From Stenotrophomonas maltophilia (GTDB lineage Bacteria; Pseudomonadota; Gammaproteobacteria; Xanthomonadales; Xanthomonadaceae), in NCBI RefSeq assembly GCF_001676385.1, contig NZ_LYVJ01000017.1:1-64000 (forward strand): DNA of 64,000 bases, in the 5' to 3' direction. The notes under the pieces were generated by a model. That model was given only the letters and a program-made list of their open reading frames with translations. It had not been told where the DNA came from and searched no databases. The position numbers were made by a program, and so were the translations under genes. This document shows, one piece after another, positions 26,691 to 40,224 of the stretch (the first letter of the stretch is position 1; each line of letters opens with the position of its first letter).

Positions 26691-29306
26691 TCATTCCATG
26701 CCGAGCACGGGGGCCTGCACTGCGTGCTGGGCCTGCGCATCCCGCGATGATGACTCAAGCTGGCGATCCCTGCTCTCCTCGAGCGCCCGCTGGCTCAGCT
26801 GGGCGTACTGCTGCATCGATGTTTCCACGGGCGTCTGCACTGCTTGCTCCGTGCGCATGGATGCCATGGGAAACGGAAACCGGCTCATCTCGCCCTGTAT
26901 GAGGAACACCGTATGCCCGGCCGGGTGCAGCGCCGTTTCGCTGCTCAGCCGCACATGGTCCACGCGGGTCAGGCCGTGGTCCTTGGCCAGCACCAGCAAG
27001 CTCGCGCTCATCCGCTCGCTGAGGCCATCAGAGGTTCGCCCATGCGCAGCATCCAGCGCCGCCACGCCCGTGCGGATCTGTTCGTAGAGCGCAGAATCCG
27101 GGCTTCCGGCCGGCAGCAACTCCAGCCCCTGCGGCCGCGTGTCCGAGGCGTGCGCGGCGGCCGGTGTCATCGGTGCCCCTGCGGAGGGCGGCGCCGTGCC
27201 CTGCCGTTCCGTCGTCTCCGTCAATGCGGGTTCCCCGTTGGCACGCGCCCGCACCTCATTCCACGCCGCCTGCAGCTCCTGCGTGCTGGTAGTCGCGACC
27301 GCGCGCGCCACACCGTCCTGGCCTACCTGGTAATGGGTGATGGGCCTGGAGGCGCCCGCGTTGCCCTCGGCTACAGGCCCCAGTTCCTGCAATGTGGGAC
27401 CCGTAATGCCGAGCTGCTCGCGCGTGCGCGCCGTGGCCAGCGCAATGGCCTGCTCCCACGCCGGGGTCAGCGCAACGCCCGCAGCGTAGTAGCTGTGGCG
27501 CAGCTCGTTCTGGTTCACTTCCGCCGCCGACGGCAGCGGCCGCGATTCCAATGCGGCAATGGTCTGGTTGAACTGATCGAGCGACGGCTGCTGGATGGTG
27601 CGGGTCAGTTCCAGCTCCAGCGCCATGTTGCCCTGCGCGATCTGGCCAGCATGGCTCCATCGCCCTGCTTCGTCGCGCTGGTAGAGCTGGTTGTCCGAGC
27701 CCTGGACGGCGTCGGGCTTGGCACGGGCCTGCTCCACTGCTTCCGGCACCAGCGGCACGAAGTCACTTGCGCGTGTAGCAGCACGGGTCTCCAGGTAACT
27801 GGCGGCGATCGCGGCCTTGCCGTTGGCGATGTTGTTCTCGATGCGCTGGACCGCCTCGCGATTCAACTCGTTGGCGCGCTCGGGGCTGGCGGTCTGCGTC
27901 TCGTACACCCCCCTGTCGTTGGCGCCGGACACGCCAATCTTGACCTGCCGCGTCCACTGCTCGGTCTGCGCATCGCGGTGCCAGTTGGGATTGTCCAGAC
28001 GGCCCTCGCCGTCCCGCGCCGGGATGCTGAAGGGATCCTGCGGTGGCGGTGCCTTGCCCAGTGCCAGCTCTACCGCTTTTACATGGGCGTATGCGCCCAG
28101 CTCGCGGGCCTTCTCGTAACTGGCACCCACGCTGCGCTCAGCGGGATTGCCCTGGCCGTCACCCGCGCTGTCCATGACCGCCTGACGGTCCCAATTGCGG
28201 CCATTGAACTGCCACGTGACGCCGGCCTTGTCGGTCTGCTGATAGATGGCGCGGTTGTCGAGCAGATCGGCGCCCTTGTCGAACGCCTTACTCATCAGCA
28301 GCGCATCGCCTGCGACGATGGCGGCCGGGACGAAACTGGAGGTGCCAATCACCGATGCCGTAGCCATGCCACCGATCCAGCCACCGCCGTTGCGCGCCAA
28401 GGCATGGGTGAGCTCGGACTGGGCGGCAGTGCCGTTGCCCTCTTCCAGCAGCTGCGAAGTACGACGGGCGGTAATGACAGCGTCGGCGCCAGAGGCGAGC
28501 AGGCCGCCGGATCGGATCAGTTGGCTGGTGGAGGCTTCGCCGAGGAGGAGGTCCATAGTGATGCCGCCTTGTTGCAAGCGAGGCGCACGAATGCGATAGG
28601 CAGCCTCCTCACCTAGCACTCGCTCCACTTTCAGGATGCCCGGCTCCGACATGACAATCCGACCAGATTGTTGCGCATCGGAGATTGCCGCCGACAAGCT
28701 GTTCCTCTGAAGCTCAAGATCACTTCCTTTAGTCAGCTTGGTGCCGAACTGATCATGGACATCCAGCAAGGCCACAATGCGCGATTCAGTTCTGGTCACT
28801 AGAAGATGCATTCGCTCGTCTGGACGCATGCCAGTCAACGCGCCGTACTGCGAAGAGTGGACCTGCGCGTAGCGATCGACATTCCCGAAGAATGCCTGCG
28901 TTCGCGGCCTGATGGCATCTGAATCCATGCCAAGAGGGGCGTTCGTGTAAAGATCACCGTTGACTAGGCCAATCGTCATCGTGTCGCGAAGGCCGTTGAC
29001 CTGAGCTGCCACGCGCTGCATCGCAGCCACGTCACCGCGAAGCGCAGCTTGGCCGTCTGGTGATGCCTCGATCATCTCCAGAGAAAAGGTGATTCCGTTT
29101 TGATAGTCCTTGATCGGCCCCCCGCCATGAGGGGAAACACCCATGGCAGCAGCGAGCCTCTTGTCTGCCGGCATGTAGAGCAGGTTCTCGAACACATCCT
29201 TCTCAACGAGCTCTGCATCCACCAATGCCTGCAGAAAATCGTTGTTATTGAAGGTTTGTTGCTCAAGCACATGGTGCTTCTGAAGAATCGGACTGTTACG
29301 CGGCAT
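26691..29306 (-). CDS. Predicted type IV secretion antibacterial effector: AHH-like nuclease with XVIPCD-like C-terminus
   Basis: An 871-residue modular toxin. The N-terminus resembles AHH nucleases of the HNH/EndoVII group: His11-His12 in QKHHVLEQQ, Asn41 in ENLLYMP and His60 in SPHGGGPIKDY. The middle holds a Gly/Ala-rich hydrophobic stretch (about 325-350) and Gln/Ala-rich helices. The last 120 residues resemble the XVIPCD signal that carries X-Tfe effectors to the killing T4SS of Xanthomonas and Stenotrophomonas: GLTRVDHVRLSSETALHPAG, VFLIQGEMSRF, then a Gln-rich tail. A putative immunity gene precedes it by 34 bp. GAGG lies 8 bp before its ATG. Cutting DNA of rival bacteria is inference. 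Confidence 0.8.
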   Translation of the reverse strand: MPRNSPILQKHHVLEQQTFNNNDFLQALVDAELVEKDVFENLLYMPADKRLAAAMGVSPHGGGPIKDYQNGITFSLEMIEASPDGQAALRGDVAAMQRVAAQVNGLRDTMTIGLVNGDLYTNAPLGMDSDAIRPRTQAFFGNVDRYAQVHSSQYGALTGMRPDERMHLLVTRTESRIVALLDVHDQFGTKLTKGSDLELQRNSLSAAISDAQQSGRIVMSEPGILKVERVLGEEAAYRIRAPRLQQGGITMDLLLGEASTSQLIRSGGLLASGADAVITARRTSQLLEEGNGTAAQSELTHALARNGGGWIGGMATASVIGTSSFVPAAIVAGDALLMSKAFDKGADLLDNRAIYQQTDKAGVTWQFNGRNWDRQAVMDSAGDGQGNPAERSVGASYEKARELGAYAHVKAVELALGKAPPPQDPFSIPARDGEGRLDNPNWHRDAQTEQWTRQVKIGVSGANDRGVYETQTASPERANELNREAVQRIENNIANGKAAIAASYLETRAATRASDFVPLVPEAVEQARAKPDAVQGSDNQLYQRDEAGRWSHAGQIAQGNMALELELTRTIQQPSLDQFNQTIAALESRPLPSAAEVNQNELRHSYYAAGVALTPAWEQAIALATARTREQLGITGPTLQELGPVAEGNAGASRPITHYQVGQDGVARAVATTSTQELQAAWNEVRARANGEPALTETTERQGTAPPSAGAPMTPAAAHASDTRPQGLELLPAGSPDSALYEQIRTGVAALDAAHGRTSDGLSERMSASLLVLAKDHGLTRVDHVRLSSETALHPAGHTVFLIQGEMSRFPFPMASMRTEQAVQTPVETSMQQYAQLSQRALEESRDRQLESSSRDAQAQHAVQAPVLGME

Positions 29307-29340: not shown

Positions 29341-29994
29341 TCAGATATCAGCTGCGTCCGTAAACGATAGTCCTCGCGACTCGCCCCTACCACCGATGCC
29401 GGCGGCCAGAACCGCATCGCGCAAAGCGCTGTCACAGAAAACCAGGTTCCCTGAGTACGGCGTTCGGAATATGTGCGCCTGGTTGATGACATCCTTTCGG
29501 AACGCCAGGGAACTTCCACCCCTGAGGTCGTAAAACTTGCCTCCGGGATAGCCCTCGTCGCGGACAACGCGGAGCTTTGACGCAGCTTCATCGACCGCAT
29601 CGATCACTCGGGTCACATCGCAGAGGAAGTAGCGCGGCCCTTCAGATCCATTGGCGAGGCGGTATTCGCTCTCCGCAAACTCGAATCCGTTGGGATCGAC
29701 AGAGACGAACGCGTTGCGCAAGCGCTCCGAGACGAGCCAGTAACCGCTCATCCCTCCTTCAAGATCTTCAGGAAGCCCCCCCTTCTTGGGTGAGTGAACC
29801 AACAGTGGTTTCTCTGCCAAAGGTGGAAATCCACCCCCTTCAGGACGTAGGATCAGCCGTGGAGGCGTGCGAAGTTTCTTCACATTCTCGAACACTACCC
29901 CGTGACCCTTTCCCCCGCGAGTGGTGTCCGGCATCAAGAGGAAGAATTCTCCGCGTCTGGGCTGAGTTGACTCCATTTGCTCCATGATATTCAT
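29341..29994 (-). CDS. Imm11-like (DUF1629) putative immunity protein
   Basis: A 217-residue cytoplasmic protein resembling the DUF1629/Imm11 family: FFLLMPDTTRGG near the N-terminus, GGMSGYWLVSERLRNAFVSV in the middle, and AHIFRTPYSGNLVFCDSALR with a closing GIGGRGLSF-like motif. Imm11-type proteins neutralise polymorphic toxins, including AHH/HNH nucleases. It is placed directly upstream of the effector on the same strand, the usual order for X-Tfi/X-Tfe pairs. A second ATG at 29985 is equally plausible as the start because AAGGG lies nearer to it at useful spacing. Confidence 0.75.
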   Translation of the reverse strand: MNIMEQMESTQPRRGEFFLLMPDTTRGGKGHGVVFENVKKLRTPPRLILRPEGGGFPPLAEKPLLVHSPKKGGLPEDLEGGMSGYWLVSERLRNAFVSVDPNGFEFAESEYRLANGSEGPRYFLCDVTRVIDAVDEAASKLRVVRDEGYPGGKFYDLRGGSSLAFRKDVINQAHIFRTPYSGNLVFCDSALRDAVLAAGIGGRGESRGLSFTDAADI

Positions 29995-30550: not shown

Positions 30551-30717
30551 GGGTCTCCTTTCCTATGGGTGTTGCGATGGGTAACTACGGTCCTCTTTTA
30601 CTCTGGCATGCATTGGTATGCAATCGGACCACAATCAAATTTTGCGCACCGCCGACGGCGCGTCCCGCCGTGTGAAACCTATCGCGGCCACACTCCTCTT
30701 CTCACTGGAGGATGCCC

Positions 30718-30927
30718 ATGATCAGACTCGACCCCACATGGCTGGAAGCCTTCGACAAGGAGCTGCTCCACCTGTTCGCCATCGACCATCGCGATGCCGG
30801 CATGGATGAATACCTGCTGGACTGCTATGCAGACCTTCCGCCGCGCGAGGCGGCACTGGCCCTCGGCAGCGACTACCACCTGGAGCGCGACGATGCGCTG
30901 TGGCCACGGCCGGGCGTGCCTATGTAA
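30718..30927 (+). CDS. Small acidic hypothetical protein
   Basis: A 69-residue acidic protein beginning MIRLDPTWLEAFDKELLHLF, helical throughout by eye. A GGAGG site at 30707-30711 is well spaced for this ATG; an ATG two codons upstream is too close to it. It is divergent from the dead nuclease paralog. No family was recognised; its place in the conflict island suggests an accessory role, but nothing more can be said. Confidence 0.6.
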   Translation: MIRLDPTWLEAFDKELLHLFAIDHRDAGMDEYLLDCYADLPPREAALALGSDYHLERDDALWPRPGVPM

Positions 30928-31018
30928 CCCGCGCAACAGTCCCGCAAGCCGGCATTCAAGGCAAGCGATGCCAGGGGATGGACGCTAAGTTGGCAGCGCA
31001 CCGGAATGGAAACCACGC

Positions 31019-31444
31019 ATGCCCCGTTTGAACACCGCCCTGGCACTGAACCTCGATCTGATGCTGCTGGACGCTACGCCTGCCATGGTCATGGCGGCAG
31101 ACCCGCAGGTTTCCACTGATGTGTTCGTGGAGCGCGGTGACAACCCTACCTTCGAGCGGCAGCAGGCGCCTGCCGTTGTGTATTCAACGGCCCCGGTCAC
31201 GCCGCCCGATACCTTGCTGCAGGTCCCCATGGCGGTGCTGTTTGTTGCTCAGCTGGATGAGCTGGGCCACGTTTCCAACGTGATGGTGGTGCGGTCCAGC
31301 GGACTACGGGACATTGATCGTGCGGCCTTTACCGCAGTGGTCCAGTGGCGCTTCGAACCGATCGTGGTTGAGGGCGTCGCGCGGCATGCGCGGGTTCGGG
31401 TGCGTTTGAGCTTCGTGGCTTCGGCGGAGGCGCCGCTCGGCTGA
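31019..31444 (+). CDS. TonB C-terminal-domain protein lacking a membrane anchor
   Basis: A 141-residue protein. The C-terminal 75 residues match the TonB_C fold: LGHVSNVMVVRSSGLRDIDRAAFTAVVQWRFEP followed by a beta strand ending VRVRLSFVAS. The N-terminus lacks the membrane helix and Pro-rich linker of a true TonB; only a weak hydrophobic stretch (LALNLDLMLLDATPAMVMAA) could act as a signal. It may be an exported stand-alone energy-transducer domain or a truncated relic. It stands alone in the island. Confidence 0.65.
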   Translation: MPRLNTALALNLDLMLLDATPAMVMAADPQVSTDVFVERGDNPTFERQQAPAVVYSTAPVTPPDTLLQVPMAVLFVAQLDELGHVSNVMVVRSSGLRDIDRAAFTAVVQWRFEPIVVEGVARHARVRVRLSFVASAEAPLG

Positions 31445-31572
31445 ACCGCTGGTTCAATCTGTCGCGATCGACCCTACGCCATGGCCCTGACTGCTGGCAT
31501 TCCTACCCTTGGGGCCAATAACGCCAAGCCCTTGAAGACCGTTGCAGCGCAATCGCTTGCCGGCTTAACACC

Positions 31573-31896
31573 GTGTGCGACAATGCCGAAAGCGTCAGGA
31601 CTGGCAATCGTCGGTTCTGCAGTTTCTTGGCATTTGGCAGCTGCGCGGGTATCTCTTGGCGTGCCACCGGAAAAGGGTGGCGCGGGACTCGAAAACCCGT
31701 CTATGTACCAGATGTATGCGCTTGCCGGCCGGCGTCACCTTTTGTGTGGCGCCGGCTGGCAATCCGTTCGCGTTCCATGGCGGGCGGTGCGTGGGGATCT
31801 TCGGATCCGCCGGTCTGGTATATGCCGGTTTTCGAGCCCGCACCGTCCGCCACCTTTATTGGTGGCGCTGCTATTTGTCCTGTACGGAGCATTGCC
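31573..31896 (+). ncRNA. Structured 5' leader RNA with alternative long-range pairings (C4-like candidate)
   Basis: A 324-base non-coding stretch before the 122-residue gene. The arm 31682-31712 (GCGGGACTCGAAAACC...TATGTACCAGA) is a near-perfect reverse complement of 31814-31842 (TCTGGTATATGCCGGTTTTC...). GGTGGCG at 31676-31682 can pair with CGCCACC at 31847-31853, which can instead pair locally with GGTGGCG at 31860-31866 just before the ATG. Local hairpins lie at 31723-31760 (11-bp stem, one G-U pair) and 31795-31808 (GGATC-TTCG-GATCC). Competing pairings around a start codon suggest attenuation or antisense control. Likeness to phage C4 antisense RNA is tentative. The 128 bases before it hold nothing recognised. 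Confidence 0.5.
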
Positions 31897-32265
31897 ATGA
31901 ACACATCGGACTTCCGTTCCCTGCACGCGCAGTACGATCCGGACAATGCCGAAACCGAGCGCGCACCCTCCCTCGATCCCAACGCATTCGTCGCCACGCT
32001 TCGCCGCATCGGAACTGGTGCAGCGGCGGATGGCCAGCCTTGGCCGGAGCGGCATCAGCTGCCTGGGCGCTGTCTACAGCTGGCGGATGCGGACTGCGCA
32101 CTAGCCGGGCTGCGTGTGGTGGCGGAGCTGATGCTGGCTGCGGAGCGGACTCGGCAGAACGGCGCGCCCCAGGAGTACCTGGGGGATCGGGTGATGGAAG
32201 GGTTGAAGATGGCGTGTGTGGCGTTGACTGCGCAGGTGGCTGAGCGGTTACAGGTGCGGGAGTAG
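31897..32265 (+). CDS. Small hypothetical protein under a structured RNA leader
   Basis: A 122-residue protein: a polar N-terminal third, then helices ALAGLRVVAELMLAAERTRQ and YLGDRVMEGLKMACVALTAQ. Its layout recalls small Pseudomonas DUF3077/DUF6124-type proteins but no clear match was recognised. A CGGAGC site lies 7 bases before the ATG. Longer open frames overlapping it in two phases run through the leader RNA and were rejected because the leader shows RNA-type pairings rather than codon structure. Confidence 0.55.
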   Translation: MNTSDFRSLHAQYDPDNAETERAPSLDPNAFVATLRRIGTGAAADGQPWPERHQLPGRCLQLADADCALAGLRVVAELMLAAERTRQNGAPQEYLGDRVMEGLKMACVALTAQVAERLQVRE

Positions 32266-32294
32266 CGCGCGCTTCGCTACGCACATCGAATGCG

Positions 32295-32783
32295 ATGCGC
32301 CGGATCGTATCCACGCTCCGAAGTATCCGCCGCGGCCTGATCCGTTTAGCCTCCAACACTGGCCTCACTATGCCGAGCCGGACTTTGCTTGCCCTGACAG
32401 CGGCAGCGCTACTGGGATTGATCATTGGCGGGACGTACGCACCAGCCACCACAATGACGCTTGAGAATTGCCCAAGACTCACCGACTCGGAGTTTGCCGT
32501 GCTTCGGGCCGACGCCGAGAGCTTTGCCGAAGCGTTGGCTTGCCATGGCGTCACCATCGAAAAGCATGATCCCAGTAGACGCTTCTTTGATATGAGCGTA
32601 CTTGGCGACGCCATTCTGTTCGTGGACAACTCTGGGCCAAGTCTTCTGATCGTCACCATGTCTACGGCCGCAAGCGGTGCATTAGAGCTACAGCGCTGGA
32701 AAGATGGATGGGGCTCACCCGAGGGACGCCGGAGGAACTTGAGCGCATCTGAGGACGGCTGCCCTTGGTCTGCATCCCAATAG
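32295..32783 (+). CDS. Hypothetical membrane-anchored protein
   Basis: A 162-residue protein with one hydrophobic helix (about residues 29-46, LLALTAAALLGLIIGGTY) followed by a periplasmic-type domain with two cysteines (LENCPRL and EALACHGV). From the ATG at 32370 the helix would lie at the N-terminus as a signal anchor, so that start, giving 137 residues, is as likely. Codon use is mildly AT-richer than the core genome. No family was recognised. Confidence 0.5.
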   Translation: MRRIVSTLRSIRRGLIRLASNTGLTMPSRTLLALTAAALLGLIIGGTYAPATTMTLENCPRLTDSEFAVLRADAESFAEALACHGVTIEKHDPSRRFFDMSVLGDAILFVDNSGPSLLIVTMSTAASGALELQRWKDGWGSPEGRRRNLSASEDGCPWSASQ

Positions 32784-32891
32784 ACCCCCATCTGCACCCC
32801 ATCCTGACAGCCAAACCCGTCAGCCAATGCCACAAGGAACCTGGTTCTGGCTAGAATCCTGGGCACTTAGCTTCTGGGACAGGGATCTGGG

Positions 32892-33821
32892 ATGGAACTC
32901 CCATTCGAGGTGGGCGCGCTCTACAACCGTCAAAAGCAAATCCACGGCATATTTGGCGGGCAACAGCAAGGCGGCATTTCGACACCTAGGGAGCATCCGC
33001 TAGTCATCGCGTTCACTGGCGAAGCCGGCGTGTCTCATGGCTATCATGATTTCTGGGACGACGACGAAGTCTTTCATTACTTCGGCGAGGGTCAAGTCGG
33101 AGACATGAAGTATGTGGCGGGCAACCGAGCGATCGGCGAGCACGTCAAAGATGGCAAGACGCTCGTAGTGTTTCAGATGATGGGCAAGGGGCGGCCCTAC
33201 CGATACCTTGGTAGGTTCATGTGCCAGTCCTCCTACGTTCAACCTGGCACGCCAGATCGAGAAGGCCAGCCAAGGTCTGCGATCGTGTTCCGCTTGAGAT
33301 CGCTGGAAGCCTCACTGGGCCTCGCGGCGAGTGAGGCGGACCAAGCTGAGATCGATGCAGCGATCGATGACGTCGGCGCGACCAGCACAAGACGCGAAAC
33401 CGAAGTGCGGACAAAACAACGCCTGTTCCGTGAGCGCCTGATTGGCGTTGAGAAGGGCTGTCGACTGACCGGCATTGAGGATCTGAGATTCCTTCGCGCG
33501 AGCCATATCAAGCCATGGGCAGATAGCACTCATAGCGAACGCGTTGACGGGGAGAATGGACTCCTGCTGGCCCCGCATGCGGATCTGCTTTTTGACCGCG
33601 GTTGGATTAGTTTTTCGTCGAGCGGTCGCCTAATAGTTTCGAGCAGCCTACCGTCGGACGTACAAGTTCGTCTTGGCCTGAAATTACATGCCTCACTTCG
33701 TTATGGAGTCTTCTCCGCGAAGCAACTTAGCTTCTTGGAATTTCACCGAGACGTGGTTTTTGATAGCCACCATTCCACATTGCATTCCACAGAGAATGTT
33801 CACCTTGGGCTCCTTCGCTAG
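32892..33821 (+). CDS. SRA/YDG-like plus HNH endonuclease (modification-dependent restriction candidate)
   Basis: A 309-residue protein. The N-terminal half (about 5-135) resembles YDG/SRA-type modified-DNA readers: VGALYNRQKQIHGIFGGQQQGG, FTGEAGVSHGYHD, YVAGNRAIGEHVKDGKTLVVFQ. The C-terminal half carries an HNH domain of the HNH_2 type: Cys190 in EKGCRLTG, RASHIKPWADSTHSERVDGENGLLL with His205, and HADLLFDRGWISF. This order matches McrA-like enzymes that cut methylated or otherwise modified phage DNA. It is convergent with the Hachiman-like operon, marking a defence island. Confidence 0.78.
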   Translation: MELPFEVGALYNRQKQIHGIFGGQQQGGISTPREHPLVIAFTGEAGVSHGYHDFWDDDEVFHYFGEGQVGDMKYVAGNRAIGEHVKDGKTLVVFQMMGKGRPYRYLGRFMCQSSYVQPGTPDREGQPRSAIVFRLRSLEASLGLAASEADQAEIDAAIDDVGATSTRRETEVRTKQRLFRERLIGVEKGCRLTGIEDLRFLRASHIKPWADSTHSERVDGENGLLLAPHADLLFDRGWISFSSSGRLIVSSSLPSDVQVRLGLKLHASLRYGVFSAKQLSFLEFHRDVVFDSHHSTLHSTENVHLGLLR

Positions 33822-34084
33822 TTCATGCCCGGTGACGCAGACGCGTCTGAATTGCGGCAGGAACACCTCAATAACGTCGCCAAGCTGATTGATTCACGGC
33901 GAACGCCGAATGACGCGCCTACCTTGGCAATCGATCAGCCCGACCCATGTGTTGCGCTTGCCAATTGAGACCGCCCAGCCTCAATAGCCACCAATGCACC
34001 GCCTTGCCCTCTGGACCAATCACCAGCCAGACAGCCGCCAAACTGGGGCATTCGATTTTCATCGAAGATGCACAGAACTGGGCA

Positions 34085-34384
34085 CTACCAAATACCAGTT
34101 ACACAACGCTTATAGGTGAATTCAACCTTGGTTAGATCCTTTCTAACTACCCAAAAACACTGCCCACCATATCCATCAGCCTCAACAATGAAGTGGTCAA
34201 CTCCCACTCCCGCCTTCTCTTCATAACTAATGTGCTTAGACAACAGCGCAGTGAGATCTATCGCATCCGAGTCAGATACGCGATCACCTTTGCCGTACGA
34301 ATTTAGCATCTTACTGAAAAATTCCAACGCATCTTTCTGACGAGGAAAGTGCCTCTCACCGACACGCACCGGCTTCGCTGCCAT
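34085..34384 (-). CDS. DUF3223-domain protein
   Basis: A 99-residue protein matching the DUF3223 pattern: ERHFPRQKDALEFFSKMLNSYGKGDRVSDSDAIDLTALLSKH, then EKAGVGVDHFIVEADGYGGQCFWVVRKD and FTYKRCV. This small domain occurs in bacterial HNH/phage-linked proteins and at the C-terminus of some plant RNA polymerase subunits; its role is not settled. It is the last gene of the minus-strand defence operon, 17 bp after the preceding ORF. It may be a nucleic-acid-binding accessory. Confidence 0.72.
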   Translation of the reverse strand: MAAKPVRVGERHFPRQKDALEFFSKMLNSYGKGDRVSDSDAIDLTALLSKHISYEEKAGVGVDHFIVEADGYGGQCFWVVRKDLTKVEFTYKRCVTGIW

Positions 34385-34401
34385 ATCCTTAACCCTTAAA
34401 T

Positions 34402-35091
34402 TTACATGTACCAGGCCAATACCGACCTTAGTTTTTGGCTAACGCCCTCAATGCTGGATCTGAAGACAACCTCATTCTCGTCAGCCTTAACAACATGCGG
34501 TAGGAGCTCCTCAATCTGATCGGGCAGAAACCCATACCTCATCAACATGACATTCACGTTATCATTGGTCCCGAATCTAATGAGCTCCATGAACTTAAGA
34601 GCCGTGACATCCTTTGTATTTCTGTAATAAATTCGAGCCGCAGCAACAAAAACATCAAATAGGCAAAATGATATTACTTTGTCCAAGTAGTCATACGTGT
34701 CAAACATTACAACATCATAACTAACCTTCTCCTTGGGAGTATTCCTTTCAAATAGTGAAAACGCCTTCTGGAGATTGGAGTCCGGCAGAATGGTGGCGGG
34801 CTGAGAGAATTCGGCATAGGGCTTTTCTTTCTCATCACGCCTCGATATCGAACTGAACCGCATACCAACTATCTCTCTGAAAGTTCTCCCGGAGAAAGAC
34901 TGAATCAGAATGAAAATTGCTTGCCGAAAAACGGAGTACTCTCCTTCAAGCAATGGCCGCCCCATATACGCTTCATAAATAAGCCTCAAACTCGCCTCAA
35001 TCTGCGCTCTTTCGGAACGCTTATCCGCGCCCCTCAGCGCATCTCTTACGCGAACTCCATCAACGTAGAGAATCTCAAGAACGGCCTGCAT
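34402..35091 (-). CDS. Third ORF of the Hachiman-like locus, or displaced C-terminus of HamB
   Basis: A 229-residue, largely helical protein with no recognised catalytic motif: MQAVLEILYVDGVRVRDALRG, FRQAIFILIQSFSGRTFREIVG and DYLDKVISFCLFDVFVAAARIYY. Its ATG lies inside the helicase gene, overlapping its end by 46 bp in another phase. Joined to the helicase it would make about 760 residues, near the length of AbpB-type helicases, so a frameshift in one ancestral gene is a real alternative to a separate gene. AT-rich codon use matches hamB. Confidence 0.6.
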   Translation of the reverse strand: MQAVLEILYVDGVRVRDALRGADKRSERAQIEASLRLIYEAYMGRPLLEGEYSVFRQAIFILIQSFSGRTFREIVGMRFSSISRRDEKEKPYAEFSQPATILPDSNLQKAFSLFERNTPKEKVSYDVVMFDTYDYLDKVISFCLFDVFVAAARIYYRNTKDVTALKFMELIRFGTNDNVNVMLMRYGFLPDQIEELLPHVVKADENEVVFRSSIEGVSQKLRSVLAWYM

Positions 35092-36683
35092 TGCTCCGAG
35101 CGCGGCACTTCCGGAAAGACGATCAGCTCTGGTCTGCGGATATGCAAGTCATCGTTGAATTGATCTGTTCGTATTGCCTCTATTACCTCCCGATCCTCAC
35201 TAGAGCGATCTTCGTCTAAGGATTCAATCAAAGACTGATCAGACAATGAATATTCATCTTCCAACCTCTTGATTAATAGTTTTGCGTTTTTGGTGTAAAC
35301 GTATCCGTAGTCAAAACTGTCCGATGATGACAATCGCCCGGCCCTACCAATTAGGTTTTTGAACGCCAGAGATCGCTTCGCTTCATTTTCAGCATGAATC
35401 TTCATACTATTCAGCCAAACCACGTCGAAGGGCATATTTACGCCTTGCGCGAGCGTACTAGTCGCGAAGCATATCCTGCAATATCCCAATCTAATGTACT
35501 CTTCGAGAAGAAACCTAACTTCTAGCGGGACTGATCCATGATGAATCACAACGCCCTTTTGGAGAAGCTCTATCATTCTTGATCGATGATTTACCTGATC
35601 AGCCCCGACCAACTTCCTGACGCTGTCAACAATTGAAATCGCCTTCACCTCCTTTAGAACAGGAAGGGAATCCACGTAATCCTGGAACTCCACAATGAAT
35701 TTTCCATTGTATATTGACTGCTTTGTTACATAAGCCAGTATAGATTTCCCAGAATGGAGCGCGAACTTCGAAAAATCCCCTTCGAACTTAACACAATCGC
35801 GAAGGCGCTCCCCTTGCCTTGAGAAGGGACTAAAGTAGTAGTCAGATCCATTCCCATGCCTTTGAATGAACACCTTCCCGACCGCACCCTGCTCGTAAGA
35901 TTTTGAGAACGCGTTACCACTTAGGAACCCATGCTTTTTGAACTGCGCCTCAGGGTTCTTCACAAAAGGATGTGCAAATATTAGCCTTGCAGAAGGAAAA
36001 TGCTTTGACACACGGCGAACGAGATGATCGAAGACCACCCCCCTCATCCCCTCATCTGAGACCTGCGCCTCGTCGAAAAAGAATACCTTTATATCTAAAT
36101 CAAGCAAAGGATCGAATATATCTCTTGCTCGCTCAGGAGTAAGTACAAATATTCGCCGCGGCGCTCTTGACTTGAACACCGAATCAACGAAAGGCATGAT
36201 CATAACCTTCTTATCGCGAGCGAAGTGTTCGCGCAAGGCGCCAACGTACTCTGCTATTAGGGCACGTGACGGCACAACAATTATCGCGTCACCATTTTCC
36301 TGAGATATGAAGTCTCGGATTGAGTAGGACTTTCCGGCACTGGTAGGCGCTGAGATTGAAACCAGCTTATGGTTTCGTATAGCAGAAACCAGACTGGCTT
36401 GAACAGGAGTCAGAACCTGATTTCCCTGCACTCTGTTCGCTTCTCCCATACGCGACATCAGAAAGGAGTACAGGCTGTTAGGCTCCCCGAGCTTATAGAA
36501 CAGCCCCATCGATGCAATGATGTCTTCTTCGAAATCCTTGAAGACAGTCTCATGAAACTCACGATATAGACTAATCTCCTCCAGCTTCTCTTGCGTGTCT
36601 GGCCCAACCTGGTGAAGGCGTTCAAGAATAGCTGACAGTGTTACTGACGGATTTTTGTCGTTCGCAATTGATTCAGGCGTCAT
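35046..36683 (-). CDS. Hachiman/AbpAB-like SF2 helicase HamB
   Basis: A 545-residue superfamily 2 helicase. Motif I is APTSAGKS (112-119), motif II is DEAQ (204-207), motif V ATSTLAQGVN (407-416) and motif VI NLIGRAGR (443-450), as in Hachiman HamB and related DEAD/DEAH helicases that scan DNA. Its start overlaps hamA by 11 bp, so translation is coupled. The C-terminus stops shortly after the helicase core (LMEFA), and an overlapping ORF continues, so the gene may be truncated by a frameshift. GC content is clearly below that of aceE next door, indicating transfer. Confidence 0.72.
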   Translation of the reverse strand: MTPESIANDKNPSVTLSAILERLHQVGPDTQEKLEEISLYREFHETVFKDFEEDIIASMGLFYKLGEPNSLYSFLMSRMGEANRVQGNQVLTPVQASLVSAIRNHKLVSISAPTSAGKSYSIRDFISQENGDAIIVVPSRALIAEYVGALREHFARDKKVMIMPFVDSVFKSRAPRRIFVLTPERARDIFDPLLDLDIKVFFFDEAQVSDEGMRGVVFDHLVRRVSKHFPSARLIFAHPFVKNPEAQFKKHGFLSGNAFSKSYEQGAVGKVFIQRHGNGSDYYFSPFSRQGERLRDCVKFEGDFSKFALHSGKSILAYVTKQSIYNGKFIVEFQDYVDSLPVLKEVKAISIVDSVRKLVGADQVNHRSRMIELLQKGVVIHHGSVPLEVRFLLEEYIRLGYCRICFATSTLAQGVNMPFDVVWLNSMKIHAENEAKRSLAFKNLIGRAGRLSSSDSFDYGYVYTKNAKLLIKRLEDEYSLSDQSLIESLDEDRSSEDREVIEAIRTDQFNDDLHIRRPELIVFPEVPRSEQCRPFLRFSTLMEFA

Positions 36684-37392
36684 TAGACACCCCCACCAGG
36701 AAAATCTGCTTAATCCCTCTCGACTTAGAAAAATCGATCGCAGATCTTAGAGCGTTCCCCATTATGACTTCATGATTCTTGCCAAGAAGAGAGAATGCCG
36801 CGACCACACCAAATTTGTCGTCATTAAGAAGCGCCGCCGGGCCGGGGCATATTTTTGAAAGATGAACATAATCCCTCAAGTGCTTCTCTGCCTCAACAAA
36901 ATCGGATGCCTGGGAGATCGCCAAGCCGTGTGGTGAGGACACCCTCGAGTACTTTGCTTCTCCAAAGTTGAGGAACCCATTTGGGCAGACGGTGTGAAAG
37001 TCGAAGCCCTCGTTCTGCTTCAGCTGAGGTTTCCAGAGCTCCGCAAGAGGAACTTCCGTGTGTCCCAATAGCGATTTCAGGGCCCGCGCGGAGCCAATCG
37101 AAACCATAAGCTCCCCGAAGTCCTCTGCCACGGGTGAGCTGGGCACTTTCTTGAATATTTCGCAAAGCACCCGAGACGTCTCTGCAACGGTTTTCTGATA
37201 TGCCCGTCTAGTCCCCTGGTCAAGGTCCGACATCCACGAGGTGTCGACAACTGTCTCAGTGAGTTTTGCAGATAACTTAGTGAGATCTGTTACGGAGACT
37301 TTGCAAGAGATAATGGACAGCGCATCATCGCCAATCATTGAGATGTGCTCGCATCCCCAATCATCATCTTTGAAGCTCATGCTAGCGGACAT
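36673..37392 (-). CDS. Hachiman-like nuclease HamA (DUF1837)
   Basis: A 239-residue protein of the DUF1837/HamA type. A PD-(D/E)xK-like set is visible: Glu94 in DFGELMVS, Asp131 in EGFDFHTV, and Glu145-Ala-Lys147 in NFGEAKYS. In Hachiman, HamA is held inactive by the HamB helicase and degrades DNA once damaged or phage DNA is sensed. Sequence ending GIKQIFLVGVSNDA is family-like. GGAGG lies 5 bp before the chosen ATG, leader of the operon hamA-hamB-ORF-DUF3223. An AbpA-like relation is an alternative label. Confidence 0.72.
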   Translation of the reverse strand: MSASMSFKDDDWGCEHISMIGDDALSIISCKVSVTDLTKLSAKLTETVVDTSWMSDLDQGTRRAYQKTVAETSRVLCEIFKKVPSSPVAEDFGELMVSIGSARALKSLLGHTEVPLAELWKPQLKQNEGFDFHTVCPNGFLNFGEAKYSRVSSPHGLAISQASDFVEAEKHLRDYVHLSKICPGPAALLNDDKFGVVAAFSLLGKNHEVIMGNALRSAIDFSKSRGIKQIFLVGVSNDA

Positions 37393-37492
37393 CCTTTCCT
37401 CCGAAAGCCAGATCTGAGTTTGTTCAACTTATCAGGTATCGGACGGAGAATCTCGTTCTTGAGCATGTGAATCGAATTGCCGCTGGCCAAAA

Positions 37493-37519
37493 AGAAAGCG
37501 GCCACATGGGCCGCTTTCT
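37493..37519 (-). terminator. Rho-independent terminator of aceE
   Basis: AGAAAGCGGCC (37493-37503) pairs exactly with GGCCGCTTTCT (37509-37519); on the minus strand it is followed by TTTTTGG. It lies 18 bp beyond the aceE stop. Confidence 0.85.
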
Positions 37520-37536
37520 CTGTCACCTATCAGGAA

Positions 37537-40224
37537 TCAAACCCCAACAGGATTAGCCTTCTCCGGATCAATCTTGTACTGCTTGATCGCCCGGGCCACA
37601 TCCTTCGCGGTCATCTTCCCTTCCTTCGCCAGCGCCGCAATCGCGGCATGCGCGATGTAGTAGCGATCCACCTCAAAGAAGCGGCGCAGGTTCGCACGCG
37701 TATCCGAGCGACCAAACCCATCCGTACCCAGCACCGTGTAGCTCATCGGCACGAACGCGCGGATCTGGTCCGCATACGCACGCACGTAGTCGGTGGCGGC
37801 AATCGCCGGGCCCTGGCGGCCTTCCAGCAGCTGGGTCACGTAGGCCTTGCGCTGCTCACCTTCCGGATGCAGGCGGTTGGCACGCTCCACGTCGAAACCA
37901 TCGCGGCGCAGTTCGTTGAAGCTCGGGCAGCTCCAGATGTCGGCGGTCACGCCGAAGTCCTTGTCCAGCAGCTCGGCGGCGGCAATGGCTTCGCGCAGGA
38001 TGGTGCCCGAACCCAGCAGCTGCACGCGCAGCTCGCCCTTCTTCGGCTTGCCGGCGTCGGTCAGCAGGTACATGCCCTTGACGATGCCTTCGGCCGCGCC
38101 TTCCGGCATGTCCGGGTGGCTGTAGTTCTCGTTCATCAGGGTGACGTAGTAGTACTCGTCCACCTGGTCTTCCATCATGCGCTTGGTGCCGTGCTGCAGG
38201 ATCACCGTCACTTCGTAGCCGAAGGTCGGGTCGTAGCTGCGCACGTTCGGGATGCCACCGGCCACCAGGTGGCTGAAGCCATCTTCGTGCTGCAGGCCCT
38301 CGCCGTTCAGCGTGGTGCGGCCGGCGGTGCCGCCCAGCAGGAAGCCGCGGGTACGCATGTCGGCCGCCTGCCATGCCAAGTCGCCCACGCGCTGGAAGCC
38401 GAACATCGAGTAGTAGATGTAGAACGGCAGCATCGGCACGTTGCTGACCGAGTAGCTGGTACCGGCAGCCATCCACGAGGCGATGGCGCCCGGCTCGCTG
38501 ATGCCCTGCTGCAGCACCTGGCCGCTCTGGTCTTCGCGGTAGAACATCAGCTGGTCGGCGTCCACCGGCTTGTACTTCTGGCCGAACGGCGCGTAGATGC
38601 CGATCTGGCGGAACAGGCCTTCCATGCCGAAGGTACGGGCTTCGTCGGCCACGATCGGCACGATGTGCGGGCCCAGTTCCTTGTCGCGCAGGGTGATGTT
38701 CAGGCTCTGCACGAACGCCATGGTGGTGGAGTAGGTGCGCTCGCCGCTGCTCTTCAGCAGGCGCTCGTAGGCTTCCAGCTTCGGCGCCACGAAAGTCTTG
38801 TCGGCCTTGCGGCGGCGCTGCGGCAGGTAACCGCCCAGGGCGGCACGGCGTTCCTGCAGGTACTGCACTTCCGGCGAATCCGGGCCCGGGTGGTAGAACG
38901 GCACCTGGCCGTTGGCCAGCTGCGCGTCGGTCACCGGGATGTTGAAGCGGTCGCGGAAGTGGCGCACCGCTTCGTCGTCCAGCTTCTTGGTCTGGTGGGT
39001 CGGGTTCAGTGCTTCACCGGCGCTGCCCATGCCGTAACCCTTCACGGTCTTGGCCAGGATGACGGTCGGCATGCCCTTGGTGTTCACGGCCTGGTGGTAG
39101 GCGGCGTACACCTTGTGCGGGTCGTGGCCACCACGGTTCAGGCGCCAGATGTCGTCGTCGCTCAGGCCGGCGACCATCGCGGCGGTCTCCGGGTACTTGC
39201 CGAAGAAATGCTCGCGCGTATAGGCGCCGCCGAAGGCCTTGCAGTTCTGGTATTCGCCGTCGACGGTTTCCATCATCAGCTTCTTCAGGACGCCGTTGGT
39301 GTCCTTGGCCAGCAGGGCATCCCAGTAACCGCCCCACAGCAACTTGATGACGTTCCAGCCGCCACCACGGAACACGCCTTCCAGTTCCTGGATGATCTTG
39401 CCGTTGCCGCGCACCGGGCCGTCCAGGCGCTGCAGGTTGCAGTTCACCACGAAGATCAGGTTGTCCAGGCCTTCACGGCCAGCCAGCGCGATGGCACCCA
39501 GGGTTTCCGGCTCGTCGCTCTCGCCGTCGCCGATGAAGCACCACACCTTGCGGTCGGACTTCTCGATCAGGCCACGGTTTTCCAGGTAGCGCATGAACTG
39601 CGCCTGGTAGATGGCGGCCAGCGGGCCCAGGCCCATCGACACGGTCGGGGTCTGCCAGTAGTCCGGCATCAGCCACGGGTGCGGGTACGAGGACAGGCCA
39701 CCGCCGTCCACTTCCATGCGGAACTTGTCCAGCTGCTCTTCGCTGATGCGACCTTCCAAGAAGGAACGCGCGTAGATGCCCGGGGCGCTGTGGCCCTGGA
39801 TGAACAGCAGGTCGCCCGGGTGGTTTTCGCTGGGGGCGCGCCAGAAGTGGTTGAAGCCCACGTCGTACAGGGTGGCGCCGGAAGCGAACGAGGCGATGTG
39901 GCCGCCCAGGTCACCCGGCTTGCGGTTGGCGCGCACCACGGTGGCCATCGCGTTCCAGCGGATGATCGAACGGATGCGCCATTCCAGCTCGGCGTTGCCC
40001 GGGCTCTTGGCCTCGAACTGCGGCTCGATGGTATTGACGTATTCGGTGGTGGGAGAGAACGGCAGGTAGGCGCCCGAACGACGGGTCAGTTCCACCATGC
40101 CTTCCAGCAGCTGATGCGCGCGCTCGGGGCCCTCGACATCAATAACGGCCTTCAACGACTCGATCCACTCCTGGGTTTCCACAGGATTCGGGTCGTTATT
40201 CAGCACCTCGTTCAACCAGTTCAT
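37537..40224 (-). CDS. Pyruvate dehydrogenase E1 component, homodimeric
   Basis: An 895-residue thiamine-diphosphate enzyme that decarboxylates pyruvate and passes the acetyl group to the E2 lipoyl domain of the pyruvate dehydrogenase complex. It aligns along its length with E. coli AceE (887): GHIASFASGATLYDVGFNHFWRA, GDGESDEPETLGAIALAGRE...NCNLQRLDGPV (ThDP site, GDGE...NCN), ADEARTFGMEGLFRQIGIY and SGRTTLNGEGLQHEDG, ending VNPVGV. The ATG at 40224 follows GGGAG at good spacing; earlier in-frame ATGs exist. No aceF or lpd lies beside it in the window. A terminator follows. Confidence 0.96.
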   Translation of the reverse strand: MNWLNEVLNNDPNPVETQEWIESLKAVIDVEGPERAHQLLEGMVELTRRSGAYLPFSPTTEYVNTIEPQFEAKSPGNAELEWRIRSIIRWNAMATVVRANRKPGDLGGHIASFASGATLYDVGFNHFWRAPSENHPGDLLFIQGHSAPGIYARSFLEGRISEEQLDKFRMEVDGGGLSSYPHPWLMPDYWQTPTVSMGLGPLAAIYQAQFMRYLENRGLIEKSDRKVWCFIGDGESDEPETLGAIALAGREGLDNLIFVVNCNLQRLDGPVRGNGKIIQELEGVFRGGGWNVIKLLWGGYWDALLAKDTNGVLKKLMMETVDGEYQNCKAFGGAYTREHFFGKYPETAAMVAGLSDDDIWRLNRGGHDPHKVYAAYHQAVNTKGMPTVILAKTVKGYGMGSAGEALNPTHQTKKLDDEAVRHFRDRFNIPVTDAQLANGQVPFYHPGPDSPEVQYLQERRAALGGYLPQRRRKADKTFVAPKLEAYERLLKSSGERTYSTTMAFVQSLNITLRDKELGPHIVPIVADEARTFGMEGLFRQIGIYAPFGQKYKPVDADQLMFYREDQSGQVLQQGISEPGAIASWMAAGTSYSVSNVPMLPFYIYYSMFGFQRVGDLAWQAADMRTRGFLLGGTAGRTTLNGEGLQHEDGFSHLVAGGIPNVRSYDPTFGYEVTVILQHGTKRMMEDQVDEYYYVTLMNENYSHPDMPEGAAEGIVKGMYLLTDAGKPKKGELRVQLLGSGTILREAIAAAELLDKDFGVTADIWSCPSFNELRRDGFDVERANRLHPEGEQRKAYVTQLLEGRQGPAIAATDYVRAYADQIRAFVPMSYTVLGTDGFGRSDTRANLRRFFEVDRYYIAHAAIAALAKEGKMTAKDVARAIKQYKIDPEKANPVGV

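Follow-up and report, generated by a model that had tools for sequence, protein, structure and literature searches.

The 64,000-nucleotide stretch of Stenotrophomonas maltophilia DNA analyzed here (contig NZ_LYVJ01000017.1, positions 1 to 64,000; hereafter, the window) contains four open reading frames (ORFs) at 34085-37392 that resemble a Hachiman-type defence operon. All lie on the minus strand and are ordered, in the direction of transcription, hamA-like gene, helicase ORF, 229-aa ORF and DUF3223 gene. The hamA-like gene (36673-37392) encodes 239 aa, a divergent PD-(D/E)xK-type effector nuclease, and overlaps the 545-aa helicase ORF (35046-36683) by 11 bp. The latter corresponds to the N-terminal two thirds of hamB, i.e., the helicase motor, and runs in the wrong frame from about residue 515 to its stop. 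The 229-aa ORF (34402-35091) overlaps the helicase ORF by 46 bp (35046-35091) and by homology is the C-terminal third of hamB in another frame, not a separate gene. The putative frameshift lesion was placed at 35046-35148, where both frames are open and homology passes from one to the other. After a gap of 17 bp follows the DUF3223 gene (34085-34384; 99 aa; HamC2 in PADLOC), which appears intact. On the other side, the junction with the core gene aceE spans 37393-37536. The four ORFs have a G+C content of 0.46-0.51, compared with 0.65 in aceE and about 0.65-0.70 in most of the window; the flank at 28-34 kb is also lowered, to about 0.51-0.62. ORF coordinates, shared direction, overlap, gap and low G+C all agreed with the original prediction, which had been made from the sequence alone. 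A promoter and terminator scan gave no more sites than shuffled sequence. Altogether, this is likely a horizontally acquired three-gene Hachiman-type operon (hamA-hamB-DUF3223/hamC) of a divergent HamAB lineage, set in a hotspot after aceE, with hamB frameshifted after the motor.

The 239-aa protein had no family match above cut-off in Pfam, PADLOC or NCBIfam. It was 44-57% identical to 18 relatives, and residues E94, D131, E145 and K147 (E...D...ExK) were invariant across the 19 aligned sequences. An AlphaFold2 (AF2) model built from these 19 sequences had a predicted local distance difference test (pLDDT) score of 83.7 and a predicted template modelling (pTM) score of 0.83. In VIA-align the model matched HamA chain 8vx9_A with Z 10.5 over 195 of 239 residues (root-mean-square deviation 4.7 Å, 10% identity), followed by 8vxy_A (Z 9.7) and residues 259-522 of AbpA 8zue_A (Z 8.9); the first row other than HamA or AbpA had Z 6.2. 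The HamA-like gene preceded hamB in 19 of 19 loci. Because of this fold match, the four invariant residues and the place before hamB, the 239-aa protein was read as HamA; it is a strongly divergent HamA. The predicted HamA-like E-D-ExK protein overlapping a helicase was thus borne out. The predicted likeness to AbpAB was not: AbpA is 531 aa long, and the window HamA aligned only to its residues 259-522, with no counterpart of AbpA's additional N-terminal portion.

The helicase ORF scored best with HamB models in PADLOC (HamB1 model, E 1.2e-52; best HamB2 model, 9.1e-42) and matched Pfam DEAD (1.3e-9) and, just below cut-off, Helicase_C (2.6e-4). Elsewhere in the window's genome it matched nothing at E up to 1e-3. 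Together with the HamA fold (Z 10.5), the HamB1 score upholds the predicted Hachiman-type pair of HamA and HamB. The best sequence matches among solved structures were 9wh1_B and then HamB 8vx9_B. PDB 9wh1 chain B (853 aa) is annotated as ‘DNA polymerase theta (Helicase domain only)’ yet outscores HamB 8vx9, and it may be a HamB-like protein under a wrong label.

Relatives were found by two routes. Of 297 same-family genomes, nine, counting the window's own, matched the helicase ORF at E 1e-10; the matches in G293 and G099 were close (E < 1e-200) and six others were remote helicases (E about 1e-11 to 1e-12). The 229-aa ORF matched three of the 297, namely its own genome, G293 and G099, and in the latter two both window ORFs matched within the same uninterrupted frame (785 or 769 codons). 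A first whole-collection scan with the helicase ORF gave no match. A second scan, of genome contigs with a profile of the HamA lineage, yielded 108 pattern matches that included 17 loci; the G099 locus of Luteimonas gilva was one of the 17. The 18 relatives belong to Pseudomonadota (16), Campylobacterota (one, L028) and Verrucomicrobiota (one, L024). The HamA lineage had no match in viral contigs and none in plasmids at E 1e-5. In a tree of 31 helicases, which has long branches and several rows of odd composition, the window formed a clade with L013 and L015 (100/99) within a branch of 19 rows that is separate from the six HamB of classical (type II) operons bearing DUF3223.

The intact L. gilva HamB was modelled from an 18-row alignment (pLDDT 76.7, pTM 0.73), and the model aligned through residues 80-763 with HamB 8vx9_B (552 residues, 4.1 Å, Z 17.3, 16% identity). 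This was the largest aligned number among the best 50 rows.

The DUF3223 protein matched Pfam DUF3223 (E 4.8e-16), PADLOC HamC2 (PDLC00203; 5.2e-35, profile positions 1-97 of 99) and PDB 2k0m (3.4e-19). Hachiman with DUF3223 has already been published as type II: according to PMC8565338, it makes up about 3.8% of Hachiman systems (379), and an example from Sphingopyxis witflariensis protects E. coli against at least one phage. PMC8565338 gives HamC no function. Among six papers found to contain the term ‘DUF3223’, this is the only one that concerns bacterial defence, by title and abstract.

None of the 18 relatives carried DUF3223, either by blastp of their ORFs or by tblastn with seven DUF3223 queries (a control recovered 23 of 24 known loci). 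The sequence available after hamB was 127 bp in L021, 1,347 bp in L017 and at least 3.7 kb in the others; given the 127 bp of L021, 17 relatives are informative. Since DUF3223 was not found in these 17, the window's lineage probably gained it separately, as far as the sequences indicate. In the two nearest relatives (L013 9124-10116 and L014 6046-7017) another third gene, of 323-330 aa, stands 27 bp after hamB; the two proteins are 54% identical to each other, and neither Pfam nor PADLOC matched them at E up to 1. Among the matches listed, the genes after hamB vary in the other relatives as well, e.g., DUF3024 in L018.

To place the gene in a wider setting, 24 DUF3223 loci were read: 12 of 21 plasmid records and 12 further genomes, the latter from searches matching 6 of 369 (own included), 7 of 398 (own included) and 2 of 61 (one already counted). 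Hachiman stood beside DUF3223 in eight of the 24. In five classical Hachiman loci, all on plasmids (L046, L047, L049, L051, L056), DUF3223 was the last gene after an intact hamB, a point that the original prediction had named for checking. The other three had a broken hamB: a remnant in L055, a deletion with inversion in L068 and a transposase insertion in L069. This raised the possibility that hamB breaks repeatedly in operons with DUF3223 (3 of 8, against 0 of 18 loci selected by HamA), an idea that was set aside, as the two sets were differently sampled and the numbers are small. Five loci had an ATPase of the SMC/RecF or AAA_13 type beside DUF3223 (L045, L054, L066, L072, L075); DUF3223 is the first gene in L066, and in L075 an HD-CE/HATPase gene lies between DUF3223 and the ATPase. 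ABC-three-component (ABC-3C) systems were the neighbors in two loci (L048, L053), both with CTD9. The remaining nine had no clear partner: L050, L052, L063, L064, L065, L067, L070, L071 and L073. In PADLOC the ABC-3C ATPases of L048 and L053 scored as LmuB (Lamassu) and the L066 ATPase as PDC-S06, while the other SMC-type ATPases scored best, more weakly, as LmuB (L075 was outside that scan).

A tree of DUF3223, weak because the protein is short and only two forks are starred, requires at least two changes of the Hachiman label by its starred branches. The HamC of L049, L051 and L056 share a fork (100/99) with SMC-linked L072 and with L050 and L052. Shuffling the labels gave values as low in 225 of 500 cases, and the Hachiman label shows no clustering beyond that. 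Partner switching by DUF3223 is, on these sequences, likely rather than firmly shown.

The DUF3223 sequence also matched the DeCL domain in the largest subunits of plant RNA polymerases IV and V (Pol IV and Pol V; PDB 8him, 8hyj and 8xmb; E 1.6e-4 to 2.3e-3), and PMC6753486 suggests a recruitment role for the Pol V domain. By analogy, HamC may have a recruiting or adaptor role. We tentatively propose, at somewhat less than even odds, that DUF3223 is a portable accessory of several defence systems that sense DNA integrity: classical Hachiman, the window's HamAB lineage, SMC/RecF- and AAA_13-type ATPase systems and ABC-three-component (Lamassu-like) systems. It would have been recruited repeatedly, in an adjacent and usually last position, to link various DNA sensors to a single shared target in the cell or the phage, as in the DeCL proposal for RNA polymerase V; the window's lineage would then be a further Hachiman branch missed by HamA models. 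No open-access paper was found, by title or abstract, to link DUF3223 to ABC-3C or SMC-ATPase defence, though such a link may already have been published.

That DUF3223 is instead a passenger of the hotspot, outside the system, is rather unlikely. Its lack in 17 of 17 informative relatives, the nine loci without a clear partner and the variable genes after hamB (among the matches listed) would suit a passenger. They are countered by the 17-bp gap on the same strand at the same low G+C, by its place last after hamB in the five intact classical Hachiman loci, and by HamC2 being its best PADLOC match.

A phage or prophage origin was also considered and rejected, on the window DUF3223 having no match in phage records and the HamA lineage none in viral contigs. 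For DUF3223, tblastn at E 1e-3 gave nothing against 50,697 phage records, and a single-protein scan of viral contigs, which reaches close relatives only, confirmed none. According to PMC10460002, ORF 59 of Sinorhizobium phage AP-16-3 is a ‘DCL family protein’, which is the NCBI name for DUF3223 proteins; distant proteins of the DUF3223 type may thus occur in phages.

The state of hamB was read from the relatives. All 18 distinct relatives (L013, L015-L031) have a single uninterrupted HamB ORF of 758-776 aa that covers both window ORFs. Residues 1-515 of the helicase ORF were 47.5-58.6% identical to the 18 intact HamB, and the 229-aa ORF was 35-50% identical to the C-terminal third of each. In PADLOC a single HamB profile matched the 229-aa ORF, and only with the profile's C-terminal end (positions 745-841 of 866, E 5e-4). 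Its frame is open upstream to 35148, and translation of this extension yields conserved HamB residues without a start codon. In the alignment, the conserved segment at the break (of the type P-x-S-K-x-E-R-L) lies in this frame, upstream of the first start codon, and the last 30 residues of the helicase ORF show no similarity to the relatives at that segment. Since a separate gene would not encode conserved residues ahead of its own start, the two ORFs are read as one gene, frameshifted. The original prediction had offered either a frameshifted hamB or a four-gene variant with two extra components. The first stands, given the uninterrupted relatives; the second falls, as the 229-aa ORF is, by alignment, the C-terminal third of HamB and no fourth component. 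It had also named the finding that would speak against it, homologous loci with one uninterrupted HamB and no DUF3223, and within the lineage just this was seen (HamB uninterrupted in 18 of 18, DUF3223 in 0 of 17 informative relatives).

Several observations weigh against the operon as read here. For HamA, a search of the window's genome with PF08878 (HamA, DUF1837) gave nothing even at E 1, and no Pfam model matched any of the lineage's 19 HamA proteins at E up to 0.01. With the HamA model, Foldseek on its own produced no E < 1e-3. When the 19 sequences were compared by HHalign with those of 11 classical HamA proteins, significance was not reached (the probability was 0.5 with the whole set and 0.2-5.2 with subsets); the GE, GFD and GEAK motifs face each other in this non-significant whole-set alignment. 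A PDB sequence search gave no match with the HamA profile and a single row (E 0.51) with the window HamA alone. On the supporting side, the PADLOC HamA model (DUF1837) matched one of the 19 members, weakly (E 3e-4); it missed 18 of 19 at E 0.01. For HamB, Brr2, Pol theta and other Ski2-like helicases matched the L. gilva model at Z 16.5-18.3, equal to or above 8vx9_B, so that the fold indicates a Ski2-like helicase rather than HamB specifically. Residues 1-79 of that model, the presumed HamA-binding part, fall outside the 8vx9_B alignment. For the lesion, the ratio of C-terminal to N-terminal identity was 0.824 in the window against a mean of 0.862 (sd 0.067) over 138 intact-intact pairs, which are not independent and exclude pairs with N-terminal identity of at least 75%. 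Finally, the window's genome is a single draft of 51 contigs from one strain.

These last two points bear on a sequencing or assembly error, under which the cell would carry an unbroken hamB and the operon would be a functional Hachiman-type system that includes DUF3223. With its C-terminal part showing no clear decay, the lesion is recent, wrong or tolerated, and a recent lesion and an error fit that observation equally well; hamA and DUF3223 also appear intact, and only one draft is at hand. Against an error, the longest homopolymer in the overlap is 3, so this is not a typical site of indel error, and the frame of the neighboring aceE is intact. We regard an error as unlikely, though deserving of some weight. 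A split but working HamB, with two ORFs translated separately and reassembling in a four-gene variant, is very unlikely. SF2 helicases are modular, and both ORFs are open across a 46-bp overlap with no clear decay; none of the 18 relatives is split, however, and conserved residues lie upstream of the second start. In the L. gilva model the break maps close to residue 518, within a short beta-hairpin flanked by helices 498-509 and 520-526; the start of the 229-aa ORF would fall inside the predicted helix 529-542. Since the break is not at a domain border and this start lies within a helix, a clean functional split is unlikely. By the model, the break region may correspond to the degenerate winged helix described for HamB. 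Least probable of all, to the point of being nearly negligible, is a programmed ribosomal frameshift, which the two open frames would permit but for which 35040-35160 holds no slippery X-XXY-YYZ heptamer and 18 of 18 relatives have no need. On the sequence evidence, then, hamB is frameshifted here, mis-sequencing being less likely.

The operon begins 144 bp after aceE. DNA similarity stops at the aceE stop codon in four aligned related genomes. In eight same-genus genomes (L088-L095, 8 of the 20 others holding aceE), similarity to the window ended at 37508-37537 and, in seven of them (not L095), resumed at 32.2-33.8 kb. The operon was absent after aceE in all eight. Their intervals contained other low-G+C cargo: C5 methyltransferases (L089, L090), NsnA (L090), HEC-01A ATPase (L091), RT_UG5-nitrilase DRT (L092), MrcB-like AAA (L088), HD-CE/HATPase (L094) and GmrSD_N (L095). 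Defence-type families were found after aceE in seven of the eight (L093 was outside the scan), and some large interval proteins had no PADLOC match (L088 4248-6365, L089 6376-7818, and in L094 and L095). The interval after aceE (30700-37540 in the window) is a variable defence hotspot in the window's genus.

Beyond the DUF3223 gene, a coding-like remnant containing stops lies on the minus strand at 33820-34080, possibly an insertion-sequence relic. It is followed by an HNH endonuclease gene at 32892-33821 (PADLOC HNH 8.4e-21, Pfam HNH_2 1.4e-10), which has a weak SRA-like N-terminal match below cut-off; similar DNA occurs in L091 (89%) up to 33761. Further off, the product of 26694-29306 carries an X-Tfes XVIPCD domain (Pfam 3.8e-24), a domain typical of secreted antibacterial effectors, and an Imm11 immunity gene follows at 29344-29994 (3.8e-64).

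Compared with Hachiman type II (PMC8565338), the window operon has the same order of HamA-like nuclease, Ski2-like helicase and DUF3223 as last gene, the same HamC2-matching DUF3223 and a similar low-G+C mobile setting. It differs in that its HamA and HamB belong to a separate lineage, its HamA is unmatched by PF08878 or the PADLOC model, its hamB is frameshifted and no other member found of its lineage has DUF3223. Thus DUF3223 adjacent to hamAB is present, while a HamB of the classical DUF3223-bearing lineage is not. Of the features of Hachiman in general, the window has the HamA fold, the D-E(X)K residues and a Ski2-like HamB directly after hamA, and lacks the HamA sequence family (DUF1837, PF08878) and a full-length HamB. 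Hachiman of E. coli ECOR31 (HamAB, PMC12278908; PDB 8vx9) has the same HamA fold and E-D-ExK residues, and its HamB aligns with an intact relative of the window's lineage over the helicase core and following domains. Identity is low, at about 10% for the window HamA and 16% for the L. gilva HamB; the solved ECOR31 HamB chain has 1174 aa against about 760 in the window's lineage, and DUF3223 is extra in the window. AbpAB (PDB 8zue; PMC10732053) shares a HamA-like domain and an SF2 helicase partner; AbpA consists of an N-terminal Cap4-like domain and a HamA-like C-terminal domain (PMC12278908). The SMC/AAA-type ATPase and ABC-3C (Lamassu-like) loci (L045, L048, L053, L054, L066, L072, L075) resemble the window in having DUF3223 beside genes for DNA-sensing-type ATPases, but the partner is an SMC/RecF/AAA_13-type ATPase instead of a Ski2-like helicase with HamA.

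According to PMC12278908, the N-terminal helical bundle of HamB contributes to HamA binding, and the degenerate winged helix and C-terminal helices probably make up the cleft for nucleic acid. The same paper states that the HamA nuclease is released once DNA damage is detected and that expressing Hachiman is mildly toxic. If the intact relatives work as E. coli Hachiman does, the N-terminal helices of their HamB would hold the HamA nuclease while HamB patrols DNA. On meeting damaged or single-stranded DNA, HamB would use ATP so that HamA can degrade DNA, aborting the infection. DUF3223 would be an add-on that probably tunes or targets the sensor, the least secure step of the scheme. In the window, the frameshift would leave a helicase core of 545 residues and an out-of-frame remainder of 229. 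Because the motor lies before the break and the presumed cleft-forming parts after it, a truncated HamB might bind HamA but not sense DNA. HamB here should lack most of the DNA-binding cleft, and the defence system in the window's genome is therefore probably inactive. The fitness cost of such systems would explain a loss of hamB by frameshift.

Overall, the kind of system is known, while the lineage and its combination with DUF3223 is a variant half seen by current models. As Pfam missed 19 of 19 and PADLOC 18 of 19 members of the lineage, the number of Hachiman systems is probably underestimated; alignments with the 18 additional loci (Pseudomonadota, Campylobacterota and Verrucomicrobiota) could serve as the seed for a new model. 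The broken hamB illustrates either the loss of an immune system that is costly to keep or an error in a draft genome, and it warns against calling four-gene variants from one genome. A phage copy near the DUF3223 family, as ORF 59 of AP-16-3 may be, could be of interest as possible counter-defence. If DUF3223 is indeed a module shared by DNA-damage-sensing systems, its function could be approached in the simplest of them, and the module would link bacterial defence to the DeCL domain of the plant silencing polymerases.

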